From Henricia sp. BOLD:AAB3569 (lineage: Eukaryota; Echinodermata; Asteroidea; Spinulosida; Echinasteridae): a stretch of 64,000 nt of DNA. The position numbers and the translations under genes are program-made. Location of the stretch: contig JBBELK010000162.1 of NCBI GenBank assembly GCA_037783545.1, forward strand, positions 2,542,001-2,606,000, written 5' to 3'. The notes below the pieces were generated by a model that saw only the letters and a program-made list of their open reading frames with translations, did no database searches and was not told where the DNA came from. Below, one piece after another: positions 1,685 through 50,290 of the stretch; the first letter of the stretch is position 1; the number at the start of each line of letters is the position of its first letter.

Positions 1685-3265
1685 TTGAAGTTTGTCTGGA
1701 AATTCCTTCAGTTCCAAAATAGCGACCACTTCAGACGCAATGTTTACCGAAAGCGGCGTCTGCTTGTGCGAAAACTGTGCCGGCAGGGAGTTTTTGCTAG
1801 TTTCGACGATAATTCGGTCGGTTTAAACAGAAAATTGCTGAAATTTGCAGAACACGTTTGGGATATAGAGTTGTTTAAGCAGGCAAAATTTGAAGTTTGT
1901 CTGGAAATTCCTTCAGTTCCAAAATAGCGACCACTTCAGACGCAATGTTTCCCGAAAGCGGCGTCTGCTTGTGCGAAAACTGTTCCGGCAGGGAGTTTTT
2001 GCTAGATTCGACGATAACTCGGTCGGTTTAAACGGGAAATTGCTGAAATTTGCAGAACACGTTTGGGATATAGAGTTGTTTAAGCAGGCAAAATTTGAAG
2101 TTTGTCTGGAAATTCCTTCAGTTCCAAAATAACGACCACGTCAGACGCATTGTTTCCCGAAAGCGGCGTCTGCTTGTGCGAAAACTGTTCCGGCAGGGAG
2201 TTTTTGCTAGATTCGACGATAACTCGGTCGGTTTAAACGGGAAATTTGCTGAAATTTGCAGAACACGTTTGGGATATAGAGTTGTTTAAGCAGGCAAAAT
2301 TTGAAGTTTGTCTGGAAATTCCTTCAGTTCCAAAATAGCGACCACTTCAGACGCAATGTTTCCCTAAAGCGGCGTCTGCTTGTGCGAAAACTGTGCCGGC
2401 AGCGAGTTTTTGCTAGATTCGACGATAATTCGGTCGGTTTAAACGGAAAATTGCTGAAATTTGCAGAACACGTTTGGGATATAGAGTTGTTTAAGCAGGC
2501 AAAATTTGAAGTTTGTCTGGAAATTCCTTCAGTTCCAAAATAGCGACCACTTCAGACGCAATGTTTCCCGAAAGCGGCGTCTGCTTGTGCGAAAACTGTT
2601 CTGGCAGGGATTTTTTGCTAGATTCGACGATAACTCGGTCGGTTTAAACGGGAAATTGCTGAAATTTGCAGAACACGTTTGGGATATAGAGTTGTTTAAG
2701 CAGGCAAAATTTGAAGTTTGTCTGGAAATTCCTTCAGTTCCAAAATAACGACCACGTCAGACGCATTGTTTCCCGAAAGCGGCGTCTGCTTGTGCGAAAA
2801 CTGTTCCGGCAGGGAGTTTTTGCTAGATTCGACGATAACTCGGTCGGTTTAAACGGGAAATTTGCTGAAATTTGCAGAACACGTTTGGGATATAGAGTTG
2901 TTTAAGCAGGCAAAATTTGAAGTTTGTCTGGAAATTCCTTCAGTTCCAAAATAGCGACCAGTTCAGACGCATTGTTTCCCGAAAGCGGCGTCTGCTTGTG
3001 CGAAAACTGTTCCGGCAGGGAGTTTTTGCTAGATTCGACGAAACTCGGTCGGTTTAAACGGGAAATTTGCTGAAATTTGCAGTTCCAAAATAGCGACCAC
3101 GTCAGACGCATTGTTTGCCGAAAGCGGCGTCTGCTTGTGCGAAAACTGTTCCGGCAGGGAGTTTTTGCTAGATTCGACGATAACTCGGTCGGTTTAAACG
3201 GGAAATTGCTGAAATTCGCAGAATCCGTTTGGGATAGGCTATAGAGTTGTTTAAGCAGGCACAAT
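1685..3265 (+). repeat. 1,576-bp HOR, copy 2 (+5 at its end)
   Basis: Monomer starts at 1685, 1890, 2095, 2301, 2506 and 2711 and the fused dimer at 2917 repeat copy 1. The copy is 1,581 bp because its last unit carries AGGCT at 3236-3240 plus private variants ATTCGC and AATCCG. From about 2,506 onward this copy is also the left end of super-repeat A. Confidence 0.9.
2917..3265 (+). repeat. Fused dimer, G-type, junction 3082/3083
   Basis: Same GACGAAACTC form as at 1,341, ending with a +5 insertion and ATTCGCAGAATCCG (349 bp). Confidence 0.92.
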
Positions 3266-4296
3266 TTGAAGTTTGTCTGGAAATTCCTTCAGTTCCAAAA
3301 GAGCGACCACTTCAGACGCAATGTTTCCCGAAAGCGGCGTCTGCTTGTGCGAAAACTGTTCTGGCAGGGATTTTTTGCTAGATTCGACGATAATTCGGTC
3401 GGTTTAAACGGGAAATTGCTGAAATTTGCAGAACACGTTTGGGATATAGAGTTGTTTAAGCAGGCAAAATTTGAAGTTTGTCTGGAAATTCCTTCAGTTC
3501 CAAAATAACGACCACGTCAGACGCATTGTTTCCCGAAAGCGGCGTCTGCTTGTGCGAAAACTGTTCCGGCAGGGAGTTTTTGCTAGATTCGACGATAACT
3601 CGGTCGGTTTAAACGGGAAATTTGCTGAAATTTGCAGAACACGTTTGGGATATAGAGTTGTTTAAGCAGGCAAAATTTGAAGTTTGTCTGGAAATTCCTT
3701 CAGTTCCAAAATAGCGACCAGTTCAGACGCATTGTTTCCCGAAAGCGGCGTCTGCTTGTGCGAAAACTGTTCCGGCAGGGAGTTTTTGCTAGATTCGACG
3801 ATAACTCGGTCGGTTTAAACGGGAAATTGCTGAAATTTGCAGAATACGTTTGGGATAGGCTATAGAGTTGTTTAAGCAGGCACAATTTGAAGTTTGTCTG
3901 GAAATTCCTTCAGTTCCAAAATAGCGACCACTTCAGACGCAATGTTTTCCGAAAGCGGCGTCTGCTTGTGCGAAAACTGTTCTGGCAGGGATTTTTTGCT
4001 AGATTCGACGATAACTCGGTCGGTTTAAACGGGAAATTGCTGAAATTTGCAGAACACGTTTGGGATATAGAGTTGTTTAAGCAGGCAAAATTTGAAGTTT
4101 GTCTGGAAATTCCTTCAGTTCCAAAATAACGACCACGTCAGACGCATTGTTTGCCGAAAGCGGCGTCTGCTTGTGCGAAAACTGTTCCGGCAGGGAGTTT
4201 TTGCTAGATTCGACGATAACTCGGTCGGTTTAAACGGGAAATTGCTGAAATTTGCAGAACACGTTTGGGATATAGAGTTGTTTAAGCAGGCAAAAT

Positions 4297-6769
4297 TTGA
4301 AGTTTGTCTGGAAATTCCTTCAGTTCCAAAATAACGACCACGTCAGACGCATTGTTTCCCGAAAGCGGCGTCTGCTTGTGCGAAAACTGTTCCGGCAGGG
4401 AGTTTTTGCTAGTTTCGACGATAATTCGGTCGGTTTAAACGGAAAATTGCTGAAATTTGCAGAACACGTTTGGGATATAGAGTTGTTTAAGCAGGCAACA
4501 TTTGAAGTTTGTCTGGAAATTCCTTCAGTTCCAAAATAGCGACCACTTCAGACGCAATGTTTCCCGAAAGCGGCGTCTGCTTGTGCGATAACTGTTCCGG
4601 CAGGGAGTTTTTGCTAGATTCGACGATAACTCGGTCGGTTTAAACGGGAAATTGCTGAAATTTGCAGAATACGTTTGGGATAGGCTATAGAGTTGTTTAA
4701 GCAGGCACAATTTGAAGTTTGTCTGGAAATTCCTTCAGTTCCAAAATAGCGACCACTTCAGACGCAATGTTTTCCGAAAGCGGCGTCTGCTTGTGCGAAA
4801 ACTGTTCTGGCAGGGATTTTTTGCTAGATTCGACGATAACTCGGTCGGTTTAAACGGGAAATTGCTGAAATTTGCAGAACACGTTTGGGATATAGAGTTG
4901 TTTAAGCAGGCAAAATTTGAAGTTTGTCTGGAAATTCCTTCAGTTCCAAAATAACGACCACGTCAGACGCATTGTTTCCCGAAAGCGGCGTCTGCTTGTG
5001 CGAAAACTGTTCCGGCAGGGAGTTTTTGCTAGATTCGACGATAACTCGGTCGGTTTAAACGGGAAATTGCTGAAATTTGCAGAACACGTTTGGGATATAG
5101 AGTTGTTTAAGCAGGCAAAATTTGAAGTTTGTCTGGAAATTCCTTCAGTTCCAAAATAACGACCACGTCAGACGCATTGTTTCCCGAAAGCGGCGTCTGC
5201 TTGTGCGAAAACTGTTCCGGCAGGGAGTTTTTGCTAGATTCGACGATAACTCGGTCGGTTTAAACGGGAAATTTGCTGAAATTTGCAGAACACGTTTGGG
5301 ATATAGAGTTGTTTAAGCAGGCAAAATTTGAAGTTTGTCTGGAAATTCCTTCAGTTCCAAAATAGCGACCAGTTCAGACGCATTGTTTCCCGAAAGCGGC
5401 GTCTGCTTGTGCGAAAACTGTTCCGGCAGGGAGTTTTTGCTAGATTCGACGATAACTCGGTCGGTTTAAACGGGAAATTGCTGAAATTTGCAGAATACGT
5501 TTGGGATAGGCTATATAGAGTTGTTTAAGCAGGCACAATTTGAAGTTTGTCTGGAAATTCCTTCAGTTCCAAAATAGCGACCACTTCAGACGCAATGTTT
5601 TCCGAAAGCGGCGTCTGCTTGTGCGAAAACTGTTCTGGCAGGGATTTTTTGCTAGATTCGACGATAACTCGGTCGGTTTAAACGGGAAATTGCTGAAATT
5701 TGCAGAACACGTTTGGGATATAGAGTTGTTTAAGCAGGCAAAATTTGAAGTTTGTCTGGAAATTCCTTCAGTTCCAAAATAACGACCACGTCAGACGCAT
5801 TGTTTGCCGAAAGCGGCGTCTGCTTGTGCGAAAACTGTTCCGGCAGGGAGTTTTTGCTAGATTCGACGATAACTCGGTCGGTTTAAACGGGAAATTGCTG
5901 AAATTTGCAGAATACGTTTGGGATATAGAGTTGTTTAAGCAGGCACAATTTGAAGTTTGTCTGGAAATTCCTTCAGTTCCAAAAGAGCGACCACTTCAGA
6001 CGCAATGTTTCCCGAAAGCGGCGTCTGCTTGTGCGAAAACTGTGCCGGCAGGGAGTTTTTGCTAGATTCGACGATAATTCGGTCGGTTTAAACGGGAAAT
6101 TGCTGAAATTTGCAGAACACGTTTGGGATATAGAGTTGTTTAAGCAGGCAAAATTTGAAGTTTGTCTGGAAATTCCTTCAGTTCCAAAATAACGACCACG
6201 TCAGACGCATTGTTTCCCGAAAGCGGCGTCTGCTTGTGCGAAAACTGTTCCGGCAGGGAGTTTTTGCTAGTTTCGACGATAATTCGGTCGGTTTAAACGG
6301 AAAATTGCTGAAATTTGCAGAACACGTTTGGGATATAGAGTTGTTTAAGCAGGCAACATTTGAAGTTTGTCTGGAAATTCCTTCAGTTCCAAAATAGCGA
6401 CCACTTCAGACGCAATGTTTCCCGAAAGCGGCGTCTGCTTGTGCGATAACTGTTCCGGCAGGGAGTTTTTGCTAGATTCGACGATAACTCGGTCGGTTTA
6501 AACGGGAAATTGCTGAAATTTGCAGAACACGTTTGGGATATAGAGTTGTTTAAGCAGGCAAAATTTGAAGTTTGTCTGGAAATTCCTTCAGTTCCAAAAT
6601 AACGACCACGTCAGACGCATTGTTTCCCGAAAGCGGGGTCTGCTTGTGCGAAAACTGTTCCGGCAGGGAGTTTTTGCTAGATTCGACGATAACTCGGTCG
6701 GTTTAAACGGGAAATTGCTGAAATTTGCAGAACACGTTTGGGATATAGAGTTGTTTAAGCAGGCAAAAT
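4297..6769 (+). repeat. 2,473-bp HOR, copy 1 (in A)
   Basis: Twelve monomers, one +T, one +5 (4682) and one +7 (5508), giving 12 x 205 + 1 + 5 + 7 = 2,473 bp. The order repeats from 6,770 with the same length variants in the same places. The AAAAGAGCG monomer at 5,950 and the GATAACTG monomer at about 6,360 are position markers. Confidence 0.9.
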
Positions 6770-9242
6770 TTGAAGTTTGTCTGGAAATTCCTTCAGTTCC
6801 AAAATAACGACCACGTCAGACGCATTGTTTCCCGAAAGCGGCGTCTGCTTGTGCGAAAACTGTTCCGGCAGGGAGTTTTTGCTAGTTTCGACGATAATTC
6901 GGTCGGTTTAAACGGAAAATTGCTGAAATTTGCAGAACACGTTTGGGATATAGAGTTGTTTAAGCAGGCAACATTTGAAGTTTGTCTGGAAATTCCTTCA
7001 GTTCCAAAATAGCGACCACTTCAGACGCAATGTTTCCCGAAAGCGGCGTCTGCTTGTGCGATAACTGTTCCGGCAGGGAGTTTTTGCTAGATTCGACGAT
7101 AACTCGGTCGGTTTAAACGGGAAATTGCTGAAATTTGCAGAATACGTTTGGGATAGGCTATAGAGTTGTTTAAGCAGGCACAATTTGAAGTTTGTCTGGA
7201 AATTCCTTCAGTTCCAAAATAGCGACCACTTCAGACGCAATGTTTTCCGAAAGCGGCGTCTGCTTGTGCGAAAACTGTTCTGGCAGGGATTTTTTGCTAG
7301 ATTCGACGATAACTCGGTCGGTTTAAACGGGAAATTGCTGAAATTTGCAGAACACGTTTGGGATATAGAGTTGTTTAAGCAGGCAAAATTTGAAGTTTGT
7401 CTGGAAATTCCTTCAGTTCCAAAATAACGACCACGTCAGACGCATTGTTTTCCGAAAGCGGCGTCTGCTTGTGCGAAAACTGTTCCGGCAGGGAGTTTTT
7501 GCTAGATTCGACGATAACTCGGTCGGTTTAAACGGGAAATTGCTGAAATTTGCAGAACACGTTTGGGATATAGAGTTGTTTAAGCAGGCAAAATTTGAAG
7601 TTTGTCTGGAAATTCCTTCAGTTCCAAAATAACGACCACGTCAGACGCATTGTTTCCCGAAAGCGGCGTCTGCTTGTGCGAAAACTGTTCCGGCAGGGAG
7701 TTTTTGCTAGATTCGACGATAACTCGGTCGGTTTAAACGGGAAATTTGCTGAAATTTGCAGAACACGTTTGGGATATAGAGTTGTTTAAGCAGGCAAAAT
7801 TTGAAGTTTGTCTGGAAATTCCTTCAGTTCCAAAATAGCGACCAGTTCAGACGCATTGTTTCCCGAAAGCGGCGTCTGCTTGTGCGAAAACTGTTCCGGC
7901 AGGGAGTTTTTGCTAGATTCGACGATAACTCGGTCGGTTTAAACGGGAAATTGCTGAAATTTGCAGAATACGTTTGGGATAGGCTATATAGAGTTGTTTA
8001 AGCAGGCACAATTTGAAGTTTGTCTGGAAATTCCTTCAGTTCCAAAATAGCGACCACTTCAGACGCAATGTTTTCCGAAAGCGGCGTCTGCTTGTGCGAA
8101 AACTGTTCTGGCAGGGATTTTTTGCTAGATTCGACGATAACTCGGTCGGTTTAAACGGGAAATTGCTGAAATTTGCAGAACACGTTTGGGATATAGAGTT
8201 GTTTAAGCAGGCAAAATTTGAAGTTTGTCTGGAAATTCCTTCAGTTCCAAAATAACGACCACGTCAGACGCATTGTTTGCCGAAAGCGGCGTCTGCTTGT
8301 GCGAAAACTGTTCCGGCAGGGAGTTTTTGCTAGATTCGACGATAACTCGGTCGGTTTAAACGGGAAATTGCTGAAATTTGCAGAATACGTTTGGGATATA
8401 GAGTTGTTTAAGCAGGCACAATTTGAAGTTTGTCTGGAAATTCCTTCAGTTCCAAAAGAGCGACCACTTCAGACGCAATGTTTCCCGAAAGCGGCGTCTG
8501 CTTGTGCGAAAACTGTGCCGGCAGGGAGTTTTTGCTAGATTCGACGATAATTCGGTCGGTTTAAACGGGAAATTGCTGAAATTTGCAGAACACGTTTGGG
8601 ATATAGAGTTGTTTAAGCAGGCAAAATTTGAAGTTTGTCTGGAAATTCCTTCAGTTCCAAAATAACGACCACGTCAGACGCATTGTTTCCCGAAAGCGGC
8701 GTCTGCTTGTGCGAAAACTGTTCCGGCAGGGAGTTTTTGCTAGTTTCGACGATAATTCGGTCGGTTTAAACGGAAAATTGCTGAAATTTGCAGAACACGT
8801 TTGGGATATAGAGTTGTTTAAGCAGGCAACATTTGAAGTTTGTCTGGAAATTCCTTCAGTTCCAAAATAGCGACCACTTCAGACGCAATGTTTCCCGAAA
8901 GCGGCGTCTGCTTGTGCGATAACTGTTCCGGCAGGGAGTTTTTGCTAGATTCGACGATAACTCGGTCGGTTTAAACGGGAAATTGCTGAAATTTGCAGAA
9001 CACGTTTGGGATATAGAGTTGTTTAAGCAGGCAAAATTTGAAGTTTGTCTGGAAATTCCTTCAGTTCCAAAATAACGACCACGTCAGACGCATTGTTTCC
9101 CGAAAGCGGGGTCTGCTTGTGCGAAAACTGTTCCGGCAGGGAGTTTTTGCTAGATTCGACGATAACTCGGTCGGTTTAAACGGGAAATTTGCTGAAATTT
9201 GCAGAACACGCTTGGGATATAGAGTTGTTTAAGCAGGCAAAA
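6770..9242 (+). repeat. 2,473-bp HOR, copy 2 (in A)
   Basis: Repeats the preceding 2,473 bp, with +5 at 7155 and +7 at 7981. The last unit (9,038) differs from 6,565 by being the 206-bp form and by leading into a fused dimer, so the homology ends inside it. In copy B the equivalent first unit is 13,576-15,638 (2,063 bp), shortened by the 410-bp loss. Confidence 0.88.
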
Positions 9243-9243
9243 T

Positions 9244-9588
9244 TTGAAGTTTGTCTGGAAATTCCTTCAGTTCCAAAATAGCGACCAGTTCAGACGCAAT
9301 GTTTCCCGAAAGCGGCGTCTGCTTGTGCGAAAACTGTTCCGGCAGGGAGTTTTTGCTAGATTCGACGATAACTCGGTCGGTTTAAACGGGAAATTTGCTG
9401 AAATTTGCAGTTCCAAAATAGCGACCACGTCAGACGCATTGTTTGCCGAAAGCGGCGTCTGCTTGTGCGAAAACTGTTCCGGCAGGGAGTTTTTGCTAGA
9501 TTCGACGATAACTCGGTCGGTTTAAACGGGAAATTGCTGAAATTTGCAGAATACGTTTGGGATATAGAGTTGTTTAAGCAGGCACAAT
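9244..9588 (+). repeat. Fused dimer, G-type, junction 9410/9411
   Basis: 345 bp in copy A, first half CCAGTTCAGACGCAATG. It opens the variable block of the super-repeat. Confidence 0.92.
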
Positions 9589-10822
9589 TTGAAGTTTGTC
9601 TGGAAATTCCTTCAGTTCCAAAATAGCGACCACTTCAGACGCAATGTTTCCGGAAAGCGGCGTCTGCTTGTGCGAAAACTGTTCCGGCAGGGAGTTTTTG
9701 CTAGATTCGACGATAACTCGGTCGGTTTAAACGGGAAATTGCTGAAATTTGCAGAATACGTTTGGGATATAGAGTTGTTTAAGCAGGCACAATTTGAAGT
9801 TTGTCTGGAAATTCCTTCAGTTCCAAAATAGCGACCACTTCAGACGCAATGTTTCCCGAAAGCGGCGTCTGCTTGTGCGAAAACTGTGCCGGCAGGGAGT
9901 TTTTGCTAGATTCGACGATAATTCGGTCGGTTTAAACGGGAAAATGCTGAAATTTGCAGAACACGTTTGGGATATAGAGTTGTTTAAGCAGGCAAAATTT
10001 GAAGTTTGTCTGGAAATTCCTTCAGTTCCAAAATAGCGACCACTTCAGGCGCAATGTTTCCCGAAAGCGGCGTCTGCTTGTGCGAAAACTGTTCCGGCAG
10101 GGAGTTTTTGCTAGATTCGACGATAACTCGGTCGGTTTAAACGGGAAAATTGCTGAAATTTGCAGAACACGTTTGGGATAAAGAGTTGTTTAAGCAGGTA
10201 CAATTTGAAGTTTGTCTGGAAATTCCTTCAGTTCCAAAATAGCGACCACTTCAGACGCAATGTTTCCCGAAAGCGGCGTCTGCTTGTGCGAAAACTGTTC
10301 CGGCAGGGAGTTTTTGCTAGATTCGACTATAATTCGGTCGGTTTAAACGGGAAATTTGCTGAAATTTGCAGAACACGTTTGGGACATAGAGTTGTTTAAG
10401 CAGGCAACATTTGAAGTTTGTCTGGAAATTCCTTCAGTTCCAAAATAGCGACCACTTCAGGCGCAATGTTTCCCGAAAGCGGCGTCTGCTTGTGCGAAAA
10501 CTGTTCCGGCAGGGAGTTTTTGCTAGATTCGACGATAACTTGGTCGGTTTAAACGGGAAAATTGCTGAAATTTGCAGAACACGTTTGGGATAAAGAGTTG
10601 TTTAAGCAGGTACAATTTGAAGTTTGTCTGGAAATTCCTTCAGTTCCAAAATAGCGACCACTTCAGACGCAATGTTTCCCGAAAGCGGCGTCTGCTTGTG
10701 CGAAAACTGTTCCGGCAGGGAGTTTTTGCTAGATTCGACGATAATTCGGTCGGTTTAAACGGGAAATTTGCTGAAATTTGCAGAACACGTTTGGGACATA
10801 GAGTTGTTTAAGCAGGCAAAAT

Positions 10823-11167
10823 TTGAAGTTTGTCTGGAAATTCCTTCAGTTCCAAAATAGCGACCACGTCAGACGCATTGTTTCCCGAAAGCGGCGTCTG
10901 CTTGTGCGAAAACTGTTCAGGCAGGGAGTTTTTGCTAGATTCGACGATAACTCGGTCGGTTTAAACGGGAAATTTGCTGAAATTTGCAGTTCCAAAATAG
11001 CGACCACGTCAGACGCATTGTTTCCCGAAAGCGGCGTCTGCTTGTGCGAAAACTGTGCCGGCAGGGAGTTTTTGCTAGATTCGACGATAATTCGGTCGGT
11101 TTAAACGGAAAATTGCTGAAATTTGCAGAACACGTTTGGGATATAGAGTTGTTTAAGCAGGCAAAAT
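10823..11167 (+). repeat. Fused dimer, C-type, junction 10989/10990
   Basis: First half has CACGTCAG and TTCAGGCAG; second half has GTTTCCCG and GTGCCGG. Precedes the TAGAGTCGACG monomer of copy A. Confidence 0.92.
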
Positions 11168-12195
11168 TTGAAGTTTGTCTGGAAATTCCTTCAGTTCCAA
11201 AATAGCGACCACTTCAGACGCAATGTTTCCCGAAAGCGGCGTCTGCTTTTGCGAAAACTGTTCTGGCAGGGAGTTTTTGCTAGAGTCGACGATAACTCGG
11301 TCGGTTTAAACGGGATATTGCTGAAATTTGCAGAACACGTTTGGGATATAGAGTTGTTTAAGCAGGCAAAATTTGAAGTTTGTCTGGAAATTCCTTCAGT
11401 TCCAAAATAACGACCACGTCAGACGCATTGTTTCCCGAAAGCGGCGTCTGCTTGTGCGAAAACTGTTCCGTCAGGGAGTTTTTGCTAGATTCGACGATAA
11501 CTCGGTCGGTTTAAACGGGAAATTTGCTGAAATTTGCAGAACACGTTTGGGATATAGAGTTGTTTAAGCAGGCAAAATTTGAAGTTTGTCTGGAAATTCC
11601 TTCAGTTCCAAAATAGCGACCAGTTCAGACGCAATGTTTCCCGAAAGCGGCGTCTGCTTGTGCGAAAACTGTTCCGGCAGGGAGTTTTTGCTAGATTCGA
11701 CGATAACTCGGTCGGTTTAAACGGGAAATTTGCTGAAATTTGCAGAACACGTTTGGGATATAGAGTTGTTTAAGCAGGCAAAATTTGAAGTTTGTCTGGA
11801 AATTCCTTCAGTTCCAAAATAGCGACCACTTCAGACGCAATGTTTCCCGAAAGCGGCGTCTGCTTGTGCGAAAACTGTTCTGGCAGGGATTTTTTGCTAG
11901 ATTCGACGATAACTCGGTCGGTTTAAACGGGAAATTGCTGAAATTTGCAGAACACGTTTGGGATATAGAGTTGTTTAAGCAGGCAAAATTTGAAGTTTGT
12001 CTGGAAATTCCTTCAGTTCCAAAATAACGACCACGTCAGACGCATTGTTTCCCGAAAGCGGCGTCTGCTTGTGCGAAAACTGTTCCGGCAGGGAGTTTTT
12101 GCTAGATTCGACGATAACTCGGTCGGTTTAAACGGGAAATTTGCTGAAATTTGCAGAACACGTTTGGGATATAGAGTTGTTTAAGCAGGCAAAAT

Positions 12196-12544
12196 TTGAA
12201 GTTTGTCTGGAAATTCCTTCAGTTCCAAAATAGCGACCAGTTCAGACGCATTGTTTCCCGAAAGCGGCGTCTGCTTGTGCGAAAACTGTTCCGGCAGGGA
12301 GTTTTTGCTAGATTCGACGAAACTCGGTCGGTTTAAACGGGAAATTTGCTGAAATTTGCAGTTCCAAAATAGCGACCACGTCAGACGCATTGTTTGCCGA
12401 AAGCGGCGTCTGCTTGTGCGAAAACTGTTCCGGCAGGGAGTTTTTGCTAGATTCGACGATAACTCGGTCGGTTTAAACGGGAAATTGCTGAAATTCGCAG
12501 AATCCGTTTGGGATAGGCTATAGAGTTGTTTAAGCAGGCACAAT
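12196..12544 (+). repeat. Fused dimer, G-type, junction 12361/12362
   Basis: Copy B counterpart of 2,917-3,265, with the same GACGAAACTC loss and +5 tail. Confidence 0.92.
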
Positions 12545-20447: not shown

Positions 20448-20653
20448 TTGAAGTTTGTCTGGAAATTCCTTCAGTTCCAAAATAACGACCACGTCAGACG
20501 CATTGTTTCCCGAAAGCGGCGTCTGCTTGTGCGAAAACTGTTCCGTCAGGGAGTTTTTGCTAGATTCGACGATAACTCGGTCGGTTTAAACGGGAAATTT
20601 GCTGAAATTTGCAGAACACGTTTGGGATATAGAGTTGTTTAAGCAGGCAAAAT

Positions 20654-25228: not shown

Positions 25229-25573
25229 TTGAAGTTTGTCTGGAAATTCCTTCAGTTCCAAAATAGCGACCACGTCAGACGCATTGTTTCCCGAAAGCGG
25301 CGTCTGCTTGTGCGAAAACTGTTCAGGCAGGGAGTTTTTGCTAGATTCGACGATAACTCGGTCGGTTTAAACGGGAAATTTGCTGAAATTTGCAGTTCCA
25401 AAATAGCGACCACGTCAGACGCATTGTTTCCCGAAAGCGGCGTCTGCTTGTGCGAAAACTGTGCCGGCAGGGAGTTTTTGCTAGATTCGACGATAATTCG
25501 GTCGGTTTAAACGGAAAATTGCTGAAATTTGCAGAACACGTTTGGCATATAGAGTTGTTTAAGCAGGCAAAAT
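25229..25573 (+). repeat. Fused dimer, C-type, junction 25395/25396
   Basis: Copy C counterpart of 10,823-11,167; private TTTGGCATA near 25,545. Confidence 0.92.
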
Positions 25574-25983
25574 TTGAAGTTTGTCTGGAAATTCCTTCAG
25601 TTCCAAAATAGCGACCACTTCAGACGCAATGTTTCCCGAAAGCGGCGTCTGCTTTTGCGAAAACTGTTCTGGCAGGGAGTTTTTGCTAGAGTCGACGATA
25701 ACTCGGTCGGTTTAAACGGGATATTGCTGAAATTTGCAGAACACGTTTGGGATATAGAGTTGTTTAAGCAGGCAAAATTTGAAGTTTGTCTGGAAATTCC
25801 TTCAGTTCCAAAATAGCGACCACTTCAGACGCAATGTTTCCCGAAAGCGGCGTCTGCTTTTGCGAAAACTGTTCTGGCAGGGAGTTTTTGCTAGAGTCGA
25901 CGATAACTCGGTCGGTTTAAACGGGATATTGCTGAAATTTGCAGAACACGTTTGGGATATAGAGTTGTTTAAGCAGGCAAAAT
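25574..25983 (+). repeat. Identical monomer pair, TAGAGTCGACG class (copy C)
   Basis: The same two-copy state as in copy B, at the same HOR position. Copies B, C and D therefore share the derived duplication and copy A does not. Confidence 0.88.
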
Positions 25984-26806
25984 TTGAAGTTTGTCTGGAA
26001 ATTCCTTCAGTTCCAAAATAACGACCACGTCAGACGCATTGTTTCCCGAAAGCGGCGTCTGCTTGTGCGAAAACTGTTCCGTCAGGGAGTTTTTGCTAGA
26101 TTCGACGATAACTCGGTCGGTTTAAACGGGAAATTTGCTGAAATTTGCAGAACACGTTTGGGATATAGAGTTGTTTAAGCAGGCAAAATTTGAAGTTTGT
26201 CTGGAAATTCCTTCAGTTCCAAAATAGCGACCAGTTCAGACGCAATGTTTCCCGAAAGCGGCGTCTGCTTGTGCGAAAACTGTTCCGGCAGGGAGTTTTT
26301 GCTAGATTCGACGATAACTCGGTCGGTTTAAACGGGAAATTTGCTGAAATTTGCAGAACACGTTTGGGATATAGAGTTGTTTAAGCAGGCAAAATTTGAA
26401 GTTTGTCTGGAAATTCCTTCAGTTCCAAAATAGCGACCACTTCAGACGCAATGTTTCCCGAAAGCGGCGTCTGCTTGTGCGAAAACTGTTCTGGCAGGGA
26501 TTTTTTGCTAGATTCGACGATAACTCGGTCGGTTTAAACGGGAAATTGCTGAAATTTGCAGAACACGTTTGGGATATAGAGTTGTTTAAGCAGGCAAAAT
26601 TTGAAGTTTGTCTGGAAATTCCTTCAGTTCCAAAATAACGACCACGTCAGACGCATTGTTTCCCGAAAGCGGCGTCTGCTTGTGCGAAAACTGTTCCGGC
26701 AGGGAGTTTTTGCTAGATTCGACGATAACTCGGTCGGTTTAAACGGGAAATTTGCTGAAATTTGCAGAACACGTTTGGGATATAGAGTTGTTTAAGCAGG
26801 CAAAAT

Positions 26807-27155
26807 TTGAAGTTTGTCTGGAAATTCCTTCAGTTCCAAAATAGCGACCAGTTCAGACGCATTGTTTCCCGAAAGCGGCGTCTGCTTGTGCGAAAACTGT
26901 TCCGGCAGGGAGTTTTTGCTAGATTCGACGAAACTCGGTCGGTTTAAACGGGAAATTTGCTGAAATTTGCAGTTCCAAAATAGCGACCACGTCAGACGCA
27001 TTGTTTGCCGAAAGCGGCGTCTGCTTGTGCGAAAACTGTTCCGGCAGGGAGTTTTTGCTAGATTCGACGATAACTCGGTCGGTTTAAACGGGAAATTGCT
27101 GAAATTCGCAGAATCCGTTTGGGATAGGCTATAGAGTTGTTTAAGCAGGCACAAT
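26807..27155 (+). repeat. Fused dimer, G-type, junction 26972/26973
   Basis: Copy D counterpart of 12,196-12,544, GACGAAACTC form with +5 tail. Confidence 0.92.
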
Positions 27156-29429
27156 TTGAAGTTTGTCTGGAAATTCCTTCAGTTCCAAAAGAGCGACCAC
27201 TTCAGACGCAATGTTTCCCGAAAGCGGCGTCTGCTTGTGCGAAAACTGTTCTGGCAGGGATTTTTTGCTAGATTCGACGATAATTCGGTCGGTTTAAACG
27301 GGAAATTGCTGAAATTTGCAGAACACGTTTGGGATATAGAGTTGTTTAAGCAGGCAAAATTTGAAGTTTGTCTGGAAATTCCTTCAGTTCCAAAATAACG
27401 ACCACGTCAGACGCATTGTTTCCCGAAAGCGGCGTCTGCTTGTGCGAAAACTGTTCCGGCAGGGAGTTTTTGCTAGATTCGACGATAACTCGGTCGGTTT
27501 AAACGGGAAATTTGCTGAAATTTGCAGAACACGTTTGGGATATAGAGTTGTTTAAGCAGGCAAAATTTGAAGTTTGTCTGGAAATTCCTTCAGTTCCAAA
27601 ATAGCGACCAGTTCAGACGCATTGTTTCCCGAAAGCGGCGTCTGCTTGTGCGAAAACTGTTCCGGCAGGGAGTTTTTGCTAGATTCGACGATAACTCGGT
27701 CGGTTTAAACGGGAAATTGCTGAAATTTGCAGAATACGTTTGGGATAGGCTATAGAGTTGTTTAAGCAGGCACAATTTGAAGTTTGTCTGGAAATTCCTT
27801 CAGTTCCAAAATAGCGACCACTTCAGACGCAATGTTTTCCGAAAGCGGCGTCTGCTTGTGCGAAAACTGTTCTGGCAGGGATTTTTTGCTAGATTCGACG
27901 ATAACTCGGTCGGTTTAAACGGGAAATTGCTGAAATTTGCAGAACACGTTTGGGATATAGAGTTGTTTAAGCAGGCAAAATTTGAAGTTTGTCTGGAAAT
28001 TCCTTCAGTTCCAAAATAACGACCACGTCAGACGCATTGTTTGCCGAAAGCGGCGTCTGCTTGTGCGAAAACTGTTCCGGCAGGGAGTTTTTGCTAGATT
28101 CGACGATAACTCGGTCGGTTTAAACGGGAAATTGCTGAAATTTGCAGAACACGTTTGGGATATAGAGTTGTTTAAGCAGGCAAAATTTGAAGTTTGTCTG
28201 GAAATTCCTTCAGTTCCAAAATAACGACCACGTCAGACGCATTGTTTCCCGAAAGCGGCGTCTGCTTGTGCGAAAACTGTTCCGGCAGGGAGTTTTTGCT
28301 AGTTTCGACGATAATTCGGTCGGTTTAAACGGAAAATTGCTGAAATTTGCAGAACACGTTTGGGATATAGAGTTGTTTAAGCAGGCAACATTTGAAGTTT
28401 GTCTGGAAATTCCTTCAGTTCCAAAATAGCGACCACTTCAGACGCAATGTTTCCCGAAAGCGGCGTCTGCTTGTGCGATAACTGTTCCGGCAGGGAGTTT
28501 TTGCTAGATTCGACGATAACTCGGTCGGTTTAAACGAGAAATTGCTGAAATTTGCAGAATACGTTTGGGATAGGCTATAGAGTTGTTTAAGCAGGCACAA
28601 TTTGAAGTTTGTCTGGAAATTCCTTCAGTTCCAAAATAGCGACCACTTCAGACGCAATGTTTTCCGAAAGCGGCGTCTGCTTGTGCGAAAACTGTTCTGG
28701 CAGGGATTTTTTGCTAGATTCGACGATAACTCGGTCGGTTTAAACGGGAAATTGCTGAAATTTGCAGAACACGTTTGGGATATAGAGTTGTTTAAGCAGG
28801 CAAAATTTGAAGTTTGTCTGGAAATTCCTTCAGTTCCAAAATAACGACCACGTCAGACGCATTGTTTCCCGAAAGCGGCGTCTGCTTGTGCGAAAACTGT
28901 TCCGGCAGGGAGTTTTTGCTAGATTCGACGATAACTCGGTCGGTTTAAACGGGAAATTGCTGAAATTTGCAGAACACGTTTGGGATATAGAGTTGTTTAA
29001 GCAGGCAAAATTTGAAGTTTGTCTGGAAATTCCTTCAGTTCCAAAATAACGACCACGTCAGACGCATTGTTTCCCGAAAGCGGCGTCTGCTTGTGCGAAA
29101 ACTGTTCCGGCAGGGAGTTTTTGCTAGATTCGACGATAACTCGGTCGGTTTAAACGGGAAATTTGCTGAAATTTGCAGAACACGTTTGGGATATAGAGTT
29201 GTTTAAGCAGGCAAAATCTGAAGTTTGTCTGGAAATTCCTTCAGTTCCAAAATAGCGACCAGTTCAGACGCATTGTTTCCCGAAAGCGGCGTCTGCTTGT
29301 GCGAAAACTGTTCCGGCAGGGAGTTTTTGCTAGATTTGACGATAACTCGGTCGGTTTAAACGGGAAATTGCTGAAATTTGCAGAATACGTTTGGGATAGG
29401 CTATATAGAGTTGTTTAAGCAGGCACAAT

Positions 29430-30659
29430 TTGAAGTTTGTCTGGAAATTCCTTCAGTTCCAAAATAGCGACCACTTCAGACGCAATGTTTTCCGAAAGCG
29501 GCGTCTGCTTGTGCGAAAACTGTTCTGGCAGGGATTTTTTGCTAGATTCGACGATAACTCGGTCGGTTTAAACGGGAAATTGCTGAAATTTGCAGAACAC
29601 GTTTGGGATATAGAGTTGTTTAAGCAGGCAAAATTTGAAGTTTGTCTGGAAATTCCTTCAGTTCCAAAATAACGACCACGTCAGACGCATTGTTTGCCGA
29701 AAGCGGCGTCTGCTTGTGCGAAAACTGTTCCGGCAGGGAGTTTTTGCTAGATTCGACGATAACTCGGTCGGTTTAAACGGGAAATTGCTGAAATTTGCAG
29801 AATACGTTTGGGATATAGAGTTGTTTAAGCAGGCACAATTTGAAGTTTGTCTGGAAATTCCTTCAGTTCCAAAGAGCGACCACTTCAGACGCAATGTTTC
29901 CCGAAAGCGGCGTCTGCTTGTGCGAAAACTGTGCCGGCAGGGAGTTTTTTGCTAGATTCGACGATAATTCGGTCGGTTTAAACGGGAAATTGCTGAAATT
30001 TGCAGAACACGTTTGGGATATAGAGTTGTTTAAGCAGGCAAAATTTGAAGTTTGTCTGGAAATTCCTTCAGTTCCAAAATAGCGACCACTTCAGACGCAA
30101 TGTTTTCCGAAAGCGGCGTCTGCTTGTGCGAAAACTGTTCTGGCAGGGATTTTTTGCTAGATTCGACGATAACTCGGTCGGTTTAAACGGGAAATTGCTG
30201 AAATTTGCAGAACACGTTTGGGATATAGAGTTGTTTAAGCAGGCAAAATTTGAAGTTTGTCTGGAAATTCCTTCAGTTCCAAAATAACGACCACGTCAGA
30301 CGCATTGTTTGCCGAAAGCGGCGTCTGCTTGTGCGAAAACTGTTCCGGCAGGGAGTTTTTGCTAGATTCGACGATAACTCGGTCGGTTTAAACGGGAAAT
30401 TGCTGAAATTTGCAGAATACGTTTGGGATATAGAGTTGTTTAAGCAGGCACAATTTGAAGTTTGTCTGGAAATTCCTTCAGTTCCAAAAGAGCGACCACT
30501 TCAGACGCAATGTTTCCCGAAAGCGGAGTCTGCTTGTGCGAAAACTGTGCCGGCAGGGAGTTTTTGCTAGATTCGACGATAATTCGGTCGGTTTAAACGG
30601 GAAATTGCTGAAATTTGCAGAACACGTTTGGGATATAGAGTTGTTTAAGCAGGCAAAAT
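29430..30659 (+). repeat. 615-bp trimer tandem duplication (copy D)
   Basis: Monomers 29,430, 29,635 and 29,840 are repeated at 30,045, 30,250 and 30,455. The unit at 29,840 has lost one A in CCAAAGAGCG (near 29,873) and gained one T in GAGTTTTTTGC (near 29,945), so its length is unchanged. 615 bp is the smallest whole-monomer multiple that keeps the reading frame, here probably by chance. Confidence 0.85.
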
Positions 30660-33236
30660 TTGAAGTTTGTCTGGAAATTCCTTCAGTTCCAAAATAACGA
30701 CCACGTCAGACGCATTGTTTCCCGAAAGCGGCGTCTGCTTGTGCGAAAACTGTTCCGGCAGGGAGTTTTTGCTAGTTTCGACGATAATTCGGTCGGTTTA
30801 AACGGAAAATTGCTGAAATTTGCAGAACACGTTTGGGATATAGAGTTGTTTAAGCAGGCAACATTTGAAGTTTGTCTGGAAATTCCTTCAGTTCCAAAAT
30901 AGCGACCACTTCAGACGCAATGTTTCCCGAAAGCGGCGTCTGCTTGTGCGATAACTGTTCCGGCAGGGAGTTTTTGCTAGATTCGACGATAACTCGGTCG
31001 GTTTAAACGGGAAATTGCTGAAATTTGCAGAACACGTTTGGGATATAGAGTTGTTTAAGCAGGCAAAATTTGAAGTTTGTCTGGAAATTCCTTCAGTTCC
31101 AAAATAACGACCACGTCAGACGCATTGTTTCCCGAAAGCGGGGTCTGCTTGTGCGAAAACTGTTCCGGCAGGGAGTTTTTGCTAGATTCGACGATAACTC
31201 GGTCGGTTTAAACGGGAAATTGCTGAAATTTGCAGAACACGTTTGGGATATAGAGTTGTTTAAGCAGGCAAAATTTGAAGTTTGTCTGGAAATTCCTTCA
31301 GTTCCAAAATAACGACCACGTCAGACGCATTGTTTCCCGAAAGCGGCGTCTGCTTGTGCGAAAACTGTTCCGGCAGGGAGTTTTTGCTAGTTTCGACGAT
31401 AATTCGGTCGGTTTAAACGGAAAATTGCTGAAATTTGCAGAACACGTTTGGGATATAGAGTTGTTTAAGCAGGCAACATTTGAAGTTTGTCTGGAAATTC
31501 CTTCAGTTCCAAAATAGCGACCACTTCAGACGCAATGTTTCCCGAAAGCGGCGTCTGCTTGTGCGATAACTGTTCCGGCAGGGAGTTTTTGCTAGATTCG
31601 ACGATAACTCGGTCGGTTTAAACGGGAAATTGCTGAAATTTGCAGAATACGTTTGGGATAGGCTATAGAGTTGTTTAAGCAGGCACAATTTGAAGTTTGT
31701 CTGGAAATTCCTTCAGTTCCAAAATAGCGACCACTTCAGACGCAATGTTTTCCGAAAGCGGCGTCTGCTTGTGCGAAAACTGTTCTGGCAGGGATTTTTT
31801 GCTAGATTCGACGATAACTCGGTCGGTTTAAACGGGAAATTGCTGAAATTTGCAGAACACGTTTGGGATATAGAGTTGTTTAAGCAGGCAAAATTTGAAG
31901 TTTGTCTGGAAATTCCTTCAGTTCCAAAATAACGACCACGTCAGACGCATTGTTTCCCGAAAGCGGCGTCTGCTTGTGCGAAAACTGTTCCGGCAGGGAG
32001 TTTTTGCTAGATTCGACGATAACTCGGTCGGTTTAAACGGGAAATTGCTGAAATTTGCAGAACACGTTTGGGATATAGAGTTGTTTAAGCAGGCAAAATT
32101 TGAAGTTTGTCTGGAAATTCCTTCAGTTCCAAAATAACGACCACGTCAGACGCATTGTTTCCCGAAAGCGGCGTCTGCTTGTGCGAAAACTGTTCCGGCA
32201 GGGAGTTTTTGCTAGATTCGACGATAACTCGGTCGGTTTAAACGGGAAATTTGCTGAAATTTGCAGAACACGTTTGGGATATAGAGTTGTTTAAGCAGGC
32301 AAAATTTGAAGTTTGTCTGGAAATTCCTTCAGTTCCAAAATAGCGACCAGTTCAGACGCATTGTTTCCCGAAAGCGGCGTCTGCTTGTGCGAAAACTGTT
32401 CCGGCAGGGAGTTTTTGCTAGATTCGACGATAACTCGGTCGGTTTAAACGGGAAATTGCTGAAATTTGCAGAATACGTTTGGATAGGCTATATAGAGTTG
32501 TTTAAGCAGGCACAATTTGAAGTTTGTCTGGAAATTCCTTCAGTTCCAAAATAACGACCACTTCAGACGCAATGTTTCCCGAAAGCGGCGTCTGCTTGTG
32601 CGAAAACTGTTCCGGCAGGGAGTTTTTGCTAGATTCGACGATAACTCGGTCGGTTTAAACGGGAAATTGCTGAAATTTGCAGAACACGTTTGGGATATAG
32701 AGTTGTTTAAGCAGGCAAAATTTGAAGTTTGTCTGGAAATTCCTTCAGTTCCAAAATAACGACCACGTCAGACGCATTGTTTGCCGAAAGCGGCGTCTGC
32801 TTGTGCGAAAACTGTTCCGGCAGGGAGTTTTTGCTAGATTCGACGATAACTCGGTCGGTTTAAACGGGAAATTGCTGAAATTTGCAGAATACGTTTGGGA
32901 TATAGAGTTGTTTAAGCAGGCACAATTTGAAGTTTGTCTGGAAATTCCTTCAGTTCCAAAAGAGCGACCACTTCAGACGCAATGTTTCCCGAAAGCGGCG
33001 TCTGCTTGTGCGAAAACTGTGCCGGCAGGGAGTTTTTGCTAGATTCGACGATAATTCGGTCGGTTTAAACGGGAAATTGCTGAAATTTGCAGAACACGTT
33101 TGGGATATAGAGTTGTTTAAGCAGGCAAAATTTGAAGTTTGTCTGGAAATTCCTTCAGTTCCAAAATAACGACCACGTCAGACGCATTGTTTCCCGAAAG
33201 CGGCGTCTGCTTGTGCGAAAACTGTTCCGGCAGGGA

Positions 33237-34543
33237 GTTTTTGCTAGTTTCGACGATAATTCGGTCGGTTTAAACGGAAAATTGCTGAAATTTGCAGAAC
33301 ACGTTTGGGATATAGAGTTGTTTAAGCAGGCAACATTTGAAGTTTGTCTGGAAATTCCTTCAGTTCCAAAATAGCGACCACTTCAGACGCAATGTTTCCC
33401 GAAAGCGGCGTCTGCTTGTGCGATAACTGTTCCGGCAGGGAGTTTTTGCTAGATTCGACGATAACTCGGTCGGTTTAAACGGGAAATTGCTGAAATTTGC
33501 AGAACACGTTTGGGATATAGAGTTGTTTAAGCAGGCAAAATTTGAAGTTTGTCTGGAAATTCCTTCAGTTCCAAAATAACGACCACGTCAGACGCATTGT
33601 TTCCCGAAAGCGGGGTCTGCTTGTGCGAAAACTGTTCCGGCAGGGAGTTTTTGCTAGATTCGACGATAACTCGGTCGGTTTAAACGGGAAATTTGCTGAA
33701 ATTTGCAGAACACGTTTGGGATATAGAGTTGTTTAAGCAGGCAAAATTTGAAGTTTGTCTGGAAATTCCTTCAGTTCCAAAATAGCGACCAGTTCAGACG
33801 CAATGTTTCCCGAAAGCGGCGTCTGCTTGTGCGAAAACTGTTCCGGCAGGGAGTTTTTGCTAGATTCGACGATAACTCGGTCGGTTTAAACGGGAAATTT
33901 GCTGAAATTTGCAGTTCCAAAATAGCGACCACGTCAGACGCATTGTTTGCCGAAAGCGGCGTCTGCTTGTGCGAAAACTGTTCCGGCAGGGAGTTTTTGC
34001 TAGATTCGACGATAACTCGGTCGGTTTAAACGGGAAATTGCTGAAATTTGCAGAATACGTTTGGGATATAGAGTTGTTTAAGCAGGCACAATTTGAAGTT
34101 TGTCTGGAAATTCCTTCAGTTCCAAAATAGCGACCACTTCAGACGCAATGTTTCCGGAAAGCGGCGTCTGCTTGTGCGAAAACTGTTCCGGCAGGGAGTT
34201 TTTGCTAGATTCGACGATAACTCGGTCGGTTTAAACGGGAAATTTGCTGAAATTTGCAGAACACGTTTGGGATATAGAGTTGTTTAAGCAGGCAAAATTT
34301 GAAGTTTGTCTGGAAATTCCTTCAGTTCCAAAATAGCGACCAGTTCAGACGCAATGTTTCCCGAAAGCGGCGTCTGCTTGTGCGAAAACTGTTCCGGCAG
34401 GGAGTTTTTGCTAGATTCGACGATAACTCGGTCGGTTTAAACGGGAAATTTGCTGAAATTTGCAGTTCCAAAATAGCGACCACGTCAGACGCATTGTTTG
34501 CCGAAAGCGGCGTCTGCTTGTGCGAAAACTGTTCCGGCAGGGA
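33237..34543 (+). repeat. 1,307-bp HOR, copy 1 (copy D)
   Basis: Starts near the GCTAGTTTCGACG variant and includes the GGGGTCTG monomer (33,542), a G-type fused dimer (33,748) and the TTTCCGG monomer (34,093). The same series recurs 1,307 bp downstream. Confidence 0.82.
33748..34092 (+). repeat. Fused dimer, G-type, junction 33914/33915
   Basis: Copy D counterpart of 18,114-18,458, in the first 1,307-bp unit. Confidence 0.92.
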
Positions 34544-34643
34544 GTTTTTGCTAGTTTCGACGATAATTCGGTCGGTTTAAACGGAAAATTGCTGAAATTT
34601 GCAGAACACGTTTGGGATATAGAGTTGTTTAAGCAGGCAACAT
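34299..34643 (+). repeat. Fused dimer, G-type recombinant, junction 34465/34466
   Basis: The second half changes from the GTTTGCCG class to the GCTAGTTTCGACG / GGAAAATTG / ACATTTG class, so it marks the crossover of the 1,307-bp duplication. Confidence 0.9.
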
Positions 34644-35850
34644 TTGAAGTTTGTCTGGAAATTCCTTCAGTTCCAAAATAGCGACCACTTCAGACGCAAT
34701 GTTTCCCGAAAGCGGCGTCTGCTTGTGCGATAACTGTTCCGGCAGGGAGTTTTTGCTAGATTCGACGATAACTCGGTCGGTTTAAACGGGAAATTGCTGA
34801 AATTTGCAGAACACGTTTGGGATATAGAGTTGTTTAAGCAGGCAAAATTTGAAGTTTGTCTGGAAATTCCTTCAGTTCCAAAATAACGACCACGTCAGAC
34901 GCATTGTTTCCCGAAAGCGGGGTCTGCTTGTGCGAAAACTGTTCCGGCAGGGAGTTTTTGCTAGATTCGACGATAACTCGGTCGGTTTAAACGGGAAATT
35001 TGCTGAAATTTGCAGAACACGTTTGGGATATAGAGTTGTTTAAGCAGGCAAAATTTGAAGTTTGTCTGGAAATTCCTTCAGTTCCAAAATAGCGACCAGT
35101 TCAGACGCAATGTTTCCCGAAAGCGGCGTCTGCTTGTGCGAAAACTGTTCCGGCAGGGAGTTTTTGCTAGATTCGACGATAACTCGGTCGGTTTAAACGG
35201 GAAATTTGCTGAAATTTGCAGTTCCAAAATAGCGACCACGTCAGACGCATTGTTTGCCGAAAGCGGCGTCTGCTTGTGCGAAAACTGTTCCGGCAGGGAG
35301 TTTTTGCTAGATTCGACGATAACTCGGTCGGTTTAAACGGGAAATTGCTGAAATTTGCAGAATACGTTTGGGATATAGAGTTGTTTAAGCAGGCACAATT
35401 TGAAGTTTGTCTGGAAATTCCTTCAGTTCCAAAATAGCGACCACTTCAGACGCAATGTTTCCGGAAAGCGGCGTCTGCTTGTGCGAAAACTGTTCCGGCA
35501 GGGAGTTTTTGCTAGATTCGACGATAACTCGGTCGGTTTAAACGGGAAATTTGCTGAAATTTGCAGAACACGTTTGGGATATAGAGTTGTTTAAGCAGGC
35601 AAAATTTGAAGTTTGTCTGGAAATTCCTTCAGTTCCAAAATAGCGACCAGTTCAGACGCAATGTTTCCCGAAAGCGGCGTCTGCTTGTGCGAAAACTGTT
35701 CCGGCAGGGAGTTTTTGCTAGATTCGACGATAACTCGGTCGGTTTAAACGGGAATTTGCTGAAATTTGCAGTTCCAAAATAGCGACCACGTCAGACGCAT
35801 TGTTTGCCGAAAGCGGCGTCTGCTTGTGCGAAAACTGTTCCGGCAGGGAG
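34544..35850 (+). repeat. 1,307-bp HOR, copy 2 (copy D)
   Basis: Monomers at 34,644, 34,849, 35,055, 35,400 and 35,606 repeat 33,337, 33,542, 33,748, 34,093 and 34,299. The fused dimer at 35,606 has lost one A in GGGAATTTGC, so its offset falls to 1,306. The edges are approximate to a few tens of bases. Confidence 0.8.
35055..35399 (+). repeat. Fused dimer, G-type, junction 35221/35222
   Basis: Duplicate of 33,748-34,092 in the second 1,307-bp unit. Confidence 0.92.
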
Positions 35851-35949
35851 TTTTTGCTAGATTCGACGATAACTCGGTCGGTTTAAACGGGAAATTGCTG
35901 AAATTTGCAGAATACGTTTGGGATATAGAGTTGTTTAAGCAGGCACAAT
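35606..35949 (+). repeat. Fused dimer, G-type, junction 35771/35772
   Basis: 344 bp because one A is missing in GGGAATTTGC. Confidence 0.92.
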
Positions 35950-36154
35950 TTGAAGTTTGTCTGGAAATTCCTTCAGTTCCAAAATAGCGACCACTTCAGA
36001 CGCAATGTTTCCGGAAAGCGGCGTCTGCTTGTGCGAAAACTGTTCCGGCAGGGAGTTTTTGCTAGATTCGACGATAACTCGGTCGGTTTAAACGGGAAAT
36101 TGCTGAAATTTGCAGAATACGTTTGGGATGTAGAGTTGTTTAAGCAGGCACAAT

Positions 36155-36360
36155 TTGAAGTTTGTCTGGAAATTCCTTCAGTTCCAAAATAGCGACCACT
36201 TCAGACGCAATGTTTCCCGAAAGCGGCGTCTGCTTTTGCGAAAACTGTTCCGGCAGGGAGTTTTTGCTAGATTCGACGATAATTCGGTCGGTTTAAACGG
36301 GAAATTTGCTGAAATTTGCAGAACACGTTTGGGACATAGAGTTGTTTAAGCAGGCAAAAT
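36155..36360 (+). repeat. Chimeric monomer bridging a four-monomer loss in copy D
   Basis: The monomer is preceded by the B-type GGGATGTAG tail and continues like the 18,664 class. It carries CTGCTTTTGCG from the 11,168/20,038 class and ends with the GGGACATAG tail of the 19,487 class. The block in copy B between these points is about 823 bp longer. This reads as a recombinant at a deletion point. Confidence 0.7.
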
Positions 36361-36705
36361 TTGAAGTTTGTCTGGAAATTCCTTCAGTTCCAAAATAGCG
36401 ACCACGTCAGACGCATTGTTTCCCGAAAGCGGCGTCTGCTTGTGCGAAAACTGTTCAGGCAGGGAGTTTTTGCTAGATTCGACGATAACTCGGTCGGTTT
36501 AAACGGGAAATTTGCTGAAATTTGCAGTTCCAAAATAGCGACCACGTCAGACGCATTGTTTCCCGAAAGCGGCGTCTGCTTGTGCGAAAACTGTGCCGGC
36601 AGGGAGTTTTTGCTAGATTCGACGATAATTCGGTCGGTTTAAACGGAAAATTGCTGAAATTTGCAGAACACGTTTGGGATATAGAGTTGTTTAAGCAGGC
36701 AAAAT
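36361..36705 (+). repeat. Fused dimer, C-type, junction 36527/36528
   Basis: Copy D counterpart of 19,693-20,037, with TTCAGGCAG. Confidence 0.92.
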
Positions 36706-37115
36706 TTGAAGTTTGTCTGGAAATTCCTTCAGTTCCAAAATAGCGACCACTTCAGACGCAATGTTTCCCGAAAGCGGCGTCTGCTTTTGCGAAAACTGTT
36801 CTGGCAGGGAGTTTTTGCTAGAGTCGACGATAACTCGGTCGGTTTAAACGGGATATTGCTGAAATTTGCAGAACACGTTTGGGATATAGAGTTGTTTAAG
36901 CAGGCAAAATTTGAAGTTTGTCTGGAAATTCCTTCAGTTCCAAAATAGCGACCACTTCAGACGCAATGTTTCCCGAAAGCGGCGTCTGCTTTTGCGAAAA
37001 CTGTTCTGGCAGGGAGTTTTTGCTAGAGTCGACGATAACTCGGTCGGTTTAAACGGGATATTGCTGAAATTTGCAGAACACGTTTGGGATATAGAGTTGT
37101 TTAAGCAGGCAAAAT
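36706..37115 (+). repeat. Identical monomer pair, TAGAGTCGACG class (copy D)
   Basis: Third occurrence of the duplicated monomer, followed as in B and C by a monomer with TTCCGTCAGG (37,116). Confidence 0.88.
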
Positions 37116-37321
37116 TTGAAGTTTGTCTGGAAATTCCTTCAGTTCCAAAATAACGACCACGTCAGACGCATTGTTTCCCGAAAGCGGCGTCTGCTTGTGC
37201 GAAAACTGTTCCGTCAGGGAGTTTTTGCTAGATTCGACGATAACTCGGTCGGTTTAAACGGGAAATTTGCTGAAATTTGCAGAACACGTTTGGGATATAG
37301 AGTTGTTTAAGCAGGCAAAAT

Positions 37322-37666
37322 TTGAAGTTTGTCTGGAAATTCCTTCAGTTCCAAAATAGCGACCAGTTCAGACGCAATGTTTCCCGAAAGCGGCGTCTGC
37401 TTGTGCGAAAACTGTTCCGGCAGGGAGTTTTTGCTAGATTCGACGATAACTCGGTCGGTTTAAACGGGAAATTTGCTGAAATTTGCAGTTCCAAAATAGC
37501 GACCACGTCAGACGCATTGTTTGCCGAAAGCGGCGTCTGCTTGTGCGAAAACTGTTCCGGCAGGGAGTTTTTGCTAGATTCGACGATAACTCGGTCGGTT
37601 TAAACGGGAAATTGCTGAAATATGCAGAATACGTTTGGGATATAGAGTTGTTTAAGCAGGCACAAT
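37322..37666 (+). repeat. Fused dimer, G-type, junction 37488/37489
   Basis: Last unit of copy D. Private GAAATATGCAG near 37,619. It leads into the AAAAGAG monomer that opens domain 2. Confidence 0.92.
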
Positions 37667-50284: not shown

Positions 50285-50290
50285 GCATGC
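50285..50290 (+). other. 4-bp insertion creating GCATGC (site 1 duplicate)
   Basis: The same insertion as at 47,202, 3,083 bp downstream, consistent with duplication after the insertion arose. Confidence 0.92.

Follow-up and report, generated by a model that had tools for sequence, protein, structure and literature searches.

A 205-bp satellite array of the sea star Henricia sp. BOLD:AAB3569 carries repeats nested within repeats, and this higher-order pattern has probably arisen as blocks of whole monomers were duplicated and lost again and again within the locus. The window, i.e., the whole stretch of 64,000 nucleotides that was analyzed (assembly GCA_037783545.1, contig JBBELK010000162.1, hereafter C162, positions 2542001-2606000), is tiled from 1 to 64000 by this satellite, head to tail and on the + strand. 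Positions refer to the window unless a contig is named, all array features described lie on the + strand, and genome-wide counts were obtained from 740.7 Mb in 2,104 contigs.

Results

Within positions 2506 to 37488, the same order of monomer variants occurs four times, once only in part. Copy 1 (2506..11784) comprises 46 monomers, and 42 of the 45 monomers in copy 2 (11785..20859) match it with a difference of 0.118%. The partial copy 3 (20890..26395) contains 27 monomers, 26 of which match copy 1 (0.210%), while copy 4 (26396..37488) contains 56 monomers, including extra ones located at approximately 29.5-36 kb, with 41 matching copy 2 (0.086%). Furthermore, copies 1 and 4 share 40 monomer pairs (of 46 and 56) at 0.174% and copies 2 and 3 share 24 (of 45 and 27) at 0.249%, counting for all of these comparisons only aligned monomer pairs at no more than 4 edits. 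This recurrence of the monomer order, which had been claimed in an earlier note on the DNA, was therefore found at pairwise differences of 0.086-0.249% between collinear copies, compared to approximately 3.5% among random monomers of the array (on average 7.2 edits between full-length pairs). Adjacent monomers, differing by 7.6 edits on average, are no closer to each other than other pairs.

An ungapped self-comparison (200-bp windows, up to 2 mismatches per window) yielded runs of 99.6-99.9% identity at each of the five dot-plot offsets that the earlier note had expected: 14,611 (4,173 bp, 5 mismatches), 9,279 (3,839 bp, 6 mismatches), 2,473 (2,726 bp with 5 and 518 bp with 4 mismatches), 8,870 (2,461 bp, 6 mismatches), and 15,636 (1,532 bp, 4 mismatches). 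Runs of 1,661 bp (5 mismatches) and 902 bp (4 mismatches) were found at offset 8,869, and further strong offsets were 5,631, 14,406, 23,890, 5,536, 3,083, and 24,505. Since the copies differ by the gain or loss of whole monomers, no single diagonal is continuous over 9 kb. We rely on a strict alignment of monomers, since a looser version chained unrelated parts. This gapped alignment joined 2530-18482 to 11809-34116; it comprises 77 monomers (65 exact) with a difference of 0.084%, and its score of 106.6 compares to a maximum of 8.0 among 30 shuffles of the monomer order under the same scoring. The runs, the gapped alignment, and the shuffle control all support the proposal of large segmental duplication inside the satellite and of exchange at several scales.

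Smaller duplications lie inside these copies. In copy 1, a first unit of 2,473 bp (4116..6588, 12 monomers) is followed by a second one (6589..9061), with 11 consecutive monomers (4321-6588) being matched at 0.044%. Internal higher-order repeats (HORs) of 2,473 bp or derivatives had been postulated for each copy; the 2,473-bp spacing holds for copy 1, copy 2 having one of 2,063 bp and copy 4 one of 3,088 bp, and the term HOR does not suit a two-copy duplication that was not reiterated into an array. Copy 4 additionally harbors a local tandem duplication of 1,307 bp (7 monomers; 33156..35768).

The sizes of the duplications are graded. Ungapped tandem duplications were found 14 times, with lags of 3, 4, 6, 6, 7, 7, 7, 7, 8, 10, 11, 12, 17, and 30 monomers, compared to a mean of 0.15 and a maximum of 1 in 20 shuffles, although these 14 are not independent events, as some are copies inherited in larger blocks. 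The gapped duplication of 46 monomers comes in addition. Hence, of the proposed three nested periods, the nesting stands, whereas three discrete levels are rejected by the gradation of lags from 3 to 30 monomers. Runs of at least 5 near-identical monomers occur 65 times in the array but not once in 30 order shuffles, and they include 362 of the 460 array monomers: 169/176 within 2506..37488, 119/149 in the rest of the window, and 74/135 outside the window.

Similar duplications also occur beyond 2506..37488. A second duplicated domain (44816..63690, reaching approximately 69,860 outside the window) shows offsets of 3,083, 5,631, 14,621, and 17,297, including a 20-monomer block (51401..55112) that is repeated at 57032-60743 (offset 5,631) with a difference of 0.081%. 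Homogenization is local within the array: with domain limits that were chosen after the runs had been seen, such runs join 296 monomer pairs within the first domain, 189 within the second, and none between these two, along with 10 in the part between the domains and 20 at the right array end. The left edge is the least homogenized part; of its 26 monomers, 35% recur exactly at another place in the array, compared to 67-100% in the other bins.

The joints and a few variable sites bear on how the blocks were copied and in which order. All but 4 of the 325 window monomers fall into recurring length classes, the other 4 measuring 170, 211, 144, and 51 bp, and therefore most block joints are in register, which is what homology-driven exchange predicts, with few exceptions. 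One of these exceptions is the 170-bp monomer at the joint of copies 2 and 3 (20818..20987), which, as read by eye, is missing 35 bp internally with about 2 shared bases and probably reflects an out-of-register event. The 144-bp and 51-bp monomers lie in a messy joint at 47359-47898, where a short stretch is duplicated. For the order of events, copies were compared only at sites before indels. At 4153 and 4164, each half of the 2.5-kb pair keeps its own bases in copies 1, 2, and 4; these two sites in one monomer are modest evidence that the 2.5-kb duplication would predate the 9.3-kb one.

The full array of 460 monomers (split ones merged) extends over 90.8 kb of C162 (approximately 2534664-2625444, corresponding to window positions of about -7336 to 83444), so that the window, with 325 monomers of which 111 are distinct, represents a part of it. 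It runs on a single strand, and both of its ends are present on the contig: the left end, at approximately 2,534,664, adjoins DNA without the 205-bp satellite, while at the right end (2,625,444) there is an abrupt switch to a 273-bp satellite that continues for 56.7 kb to the contig end. A conserved 21-mer of the 205-bp family has 16,668 exact copies in the genome, which is a lower bound for the family. As a long head-to-tail array of a sequence with many genome copies, this is non-coding tandem satellite DNA. A coding repeat was ruled out, since stop codons interrupt all six frames of three joined consensus monomers and 205 cannot be divided by 3; stop-to-stop frames within the window reach at most 155 amino acids. 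An RNA gene was also considered, but tRNA and Rfam scans of the window gave no match.

Two structural variants are nearly private to the C162 array and a second contig, C1498, despite the 16,668 copies of the family 21-mer. The first is a 65-bp deletion that yields a 140-bp monomer; one exact 31-base form of its joint occurs at 66 places in the genome, with 56 on C162, 9 on C1498, and 1 on C252. The second is a 5-bp insertion found at 34 places, 22 on C162 and 12 on C1498. This insertion (e.g., at 3226, 3847, and 4672) has the appearance TA-GGC-TA, which we take to be reminiscent of a Tc1/mariner-type excision footprint.

The boundary between the 205-bp and the 273-bp satellite also recurs on C1498, which accounts for 6 of its 7 genome places (at most 2 mismatches), the remaining one being on C162. 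The C1498 boundary copies (36875, 38441, 39393, 39972, 40924, and 42696) lie within approximately 6 kb, i.e., the boundary itself has been duplicated. The 205-bp array of C1498 is broken up by other sequence; 40 of its 131 monomers are identical to monomers of the C162 array and 75 are within one edit, while the longest collinear stretch found comprises five monomers. C1498 might be the other haplotype of the C162 locus, which we consider tentative; alternatively, it could be a nearby block.

Repeated spacing of marker places was also seen on other contigs. For another marker on C391 (97 places among the matches listed), up to five equal spacings follow one another (shift of 4,488 bp), which none of 500 shuffles reached, and a further run, with a shift of 33,513 bp, comprises four spacings and does not exceed the shuffle maximum of four. 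The spacing runs on C16 were matched by 1 of 200 shuffles. Simple counts of marker offsets on C13 and C16 were not above shuffles.

The 273-bp satellite, which directly abuts the array (C162:2625445-2682105, window position of about 83445 onward), is far more abundant than the 205-bp satellite: a 30-mer of it has 117,306 exact copies in the genome, which is a lower bound and would correspond to approximately 32 Mb if there is one per monomer. The 205-bp satellite is therefore not the most abundant one. A rule of thumb places the commonest satellite at the centromere, and under it the 205-bp array would count as a flanking block. Both satellites have a domain of approximately 92 bp in common, with the 205-bp monomer on its reverse strand (score 68; best of 300 shuffles 28). 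On the 205-bp monomer, this domain occupies positions of about 123-205 and 1-10 in inverted orientation, with an identity of approximately 75% over 83 bp in most matches to 273-type loci, and at the array junction it stands in opposite orientation in the two satellites. Outside the domain, similarity is weak: for the 273-bp unit, none of 300 partial shuffles equaled it, and for a 295-bp unit it remains within the shuffle range. The 295-bp unit belongs to a diverged relative of the 273-bp satellite found on C132, C3, C288, C422, C648, and others; the C132 repeat was considered as a third, unrelated satellite with the shared domain, which was rejected in favor of this relationship. In the 140-bp monomer, the core of the domain is lost through the 65-bp deletion. 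Among 82 distinct array monomers, the core varies by 2.0% compared to 2.9% elsewhere, and its divergence from a sample of C16 is 5.7% compared to 5.8% outside, so that neither variability nor divergence clearly supports the shared domain as a constrained box.

We also compared both satellites with the CENP-B box, whose pattern with nine essential positions is NTTCGNNNNANNCGGGN. Measured against this pattern, the stretch GGTCGGTTTAAACGGGA of the 205-bp consensus agrees at 8 of the 9 essential positions, which 3.2% of 500 shuffles equaled, while the 273-bp consensus reaches 6 of 9 at best; as two satellites were tried, the chance of an 8/9 match is approximately 6%. At least 395 of 459 monomers (the 51-bp monomer being left out) retain the first 16 bases of the stretch, and a version with 9/9 positions occurs at 215 genome places, compared to a single occurrence of a backward-read control. 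Among the first 100 listed of these 215 places, 97 lie in C391:9595-185917, i.e., on the contig with repeated marker spacing. The stretch is a candidate CENP-B box that is suggestive at most.

Furthermore, COX1 occurs three times on a single contig, C955, with a spacing of 16,221 bp, apparently representing a concatenated mitochondrial genome as an assembly by-product. On the mitochondrial contig, COX1 is followed by ND4L and COX2, and ND1 lies on the opposite strand upstream of a gap that could accommodate a tRNA cluster, the neighbors of COX1 having been identified by eye. Such a gene order is that of sea stars.

Discussion

The anatomy of the array is best explained by blocks of approximately 3 to 46 monomers (0.6-9.3 kb) that would have been copied beside themselves, driven by homology and in register, with losses of whole monomers. 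The pathway may have been unequal sister-chromatid exchange, or else a misaligned monomer may have served as the template for break-induced copying. Earlier small duplications would have been carried along within later large ones, resulting in repeats inside repeats, and no selection would be needed for the pattern. Block duplication is supported by copies that differ by 0.09-0.25% in an array of monomers that differ by about 3.5%, by runs that are absent in shuffles, by the graded duplications, and by joints in register, as well as by local homogenization, the near-private markers, and the repeated spacing on C391.

Several observations weigh against this explanation. Changes at 4647 and 5447 are common to copies 2 and 4, and one change (4978) is common to copies 1 and 3; neighbors are therefore not always closest relatives. 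Gene conversion among copies is likely and could account for some of these shared sites, which are few. At least 3 monomers (170, 144, and 51 bp) stem from joints out of register, which means that little homology was used in some events, and 5 monomer pairs are joined by runs between the first domain and the far right array end. On C13, 69 of 200 shuffles gave marker spacing runs as good as those observed, i.e., there is no excess repetition. Moreover, the array structure is taken here from the assembly, and from sequence alone unequal exchange, break-induced copying, and circle reinsertion would look the same.

It is unlikely, yet the foremost alternative, that excision of blocks as extrachromosomal circles was followed by rolling-circle amplification and reinsertion as tandem copies. 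The tandem 9.3-kb copies and the blocks 5.6 kb apart would fit this scenario, and the joint at 20818-20987 is a possible reinsertion edge. However, rolling-circle amplification tends to yield many uniform copies, whereas each block is present in only about two to four copies that differ by gains and losses of whole monomers.

An assembly artifact, in which haplotypes or misplaced reads were joined in series, is still less probable. While such repeats are hard to assemble, and C1498 with the same boundary was left as a separate contig, four copies that differ in their gained and lost monomers and carry private substitutions would hardly arise in this way. The longest exact repeat within the window is 3,495 bp, and long reads would usually exceed this length. 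In addition, repeated marker spacing was found on C391 as well.

That selection for the spacing of a protein-binding site maintains the pattern, in analogy to a proposal on the CENP-B boxes of alpha satellite, is highly improbable despite the conserved 8/9 box-like stretch and its 9/9 version elsewhere in the genome, since the 273-bp satellite lacks a match, the 8/9 agreement has an appreciable chance probability, the motif is near-uniform along the array and thus does not mark the nested pattern, block sizes are variable, and no CENP-B protein is known to us that binds a site of this kind in sea stars, for which no search was made.

The unit copies of the array are far more alike than its monomers, as in HORs, and monomer types recur within a unit, as in cascading HORs, with the 2,473-bp duplication lying inside the 9,279-bp unit. 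However, no unit is reiterated many times: the 9.3-kb unit occurs four times, one of them partial, and the 2.47-kb unit twice in copy 1. With units present about two to four times, the array lacks the many-copy feature of a classical HOR array.

Reports on primate alpha satellite describe cascading or super HORs with 429 copies of a 15mer and 67 copies of a 58mer (PMC11050224, PMC12428378). Like these, the sea star array has a large unit with recurring sub-blocks and near-identical copies (0.25% for the orangutan 58mer, 0.09-0.25% here). In contrast to the tens to hundreds of copies given there, about two to four are found here, with monomers approximately 3.5% apart, and primates are far away from sea stars. 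Distinct domains along one array are also described for human chromosome 8 with its layered alpha-satellite array (PMC8099727). That array, though, is a 2.08-Mb centromere with CENP-A data, whereas the present one spans 90.8 kb and is known from sequence, and it has no clear symmetry, although its left edge is the least homogenized. In a study on nematode satellites (PMC3694981), simple and HOR-like arrays, a sequence common to satellites, and a CENP-B-box-like stretch are likewise reported; the nematode HORs combine different satellites, while here a single family forms the array and a second one appears only at its edge. According to a survey that includes data for a spiny starfish, most species are without rich higher-order structure (PMC10153287).

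A literature search by title, with most subscription journals outside its scope, found no published description of the structure of this array. Satellite evolution by block duplication is ordinary in kind, and we regard the array as an unusually clear example rather than a new type of element. Since both edges of the satellite block are assembled, the sizes of its duplications and, in part, their order can be read. If C1498 proves to be allelic, higher-order structure would have been wholly rebuilt between two alleles of one individual while the set of monomers was kept, and the completeness of such turnover could be measured directly. Our findings further suggest that irregular nesting at low copy number may escape methods that seek many-copy units, and that a single process acting over a broad range of sizes may suffice for nested patterns.

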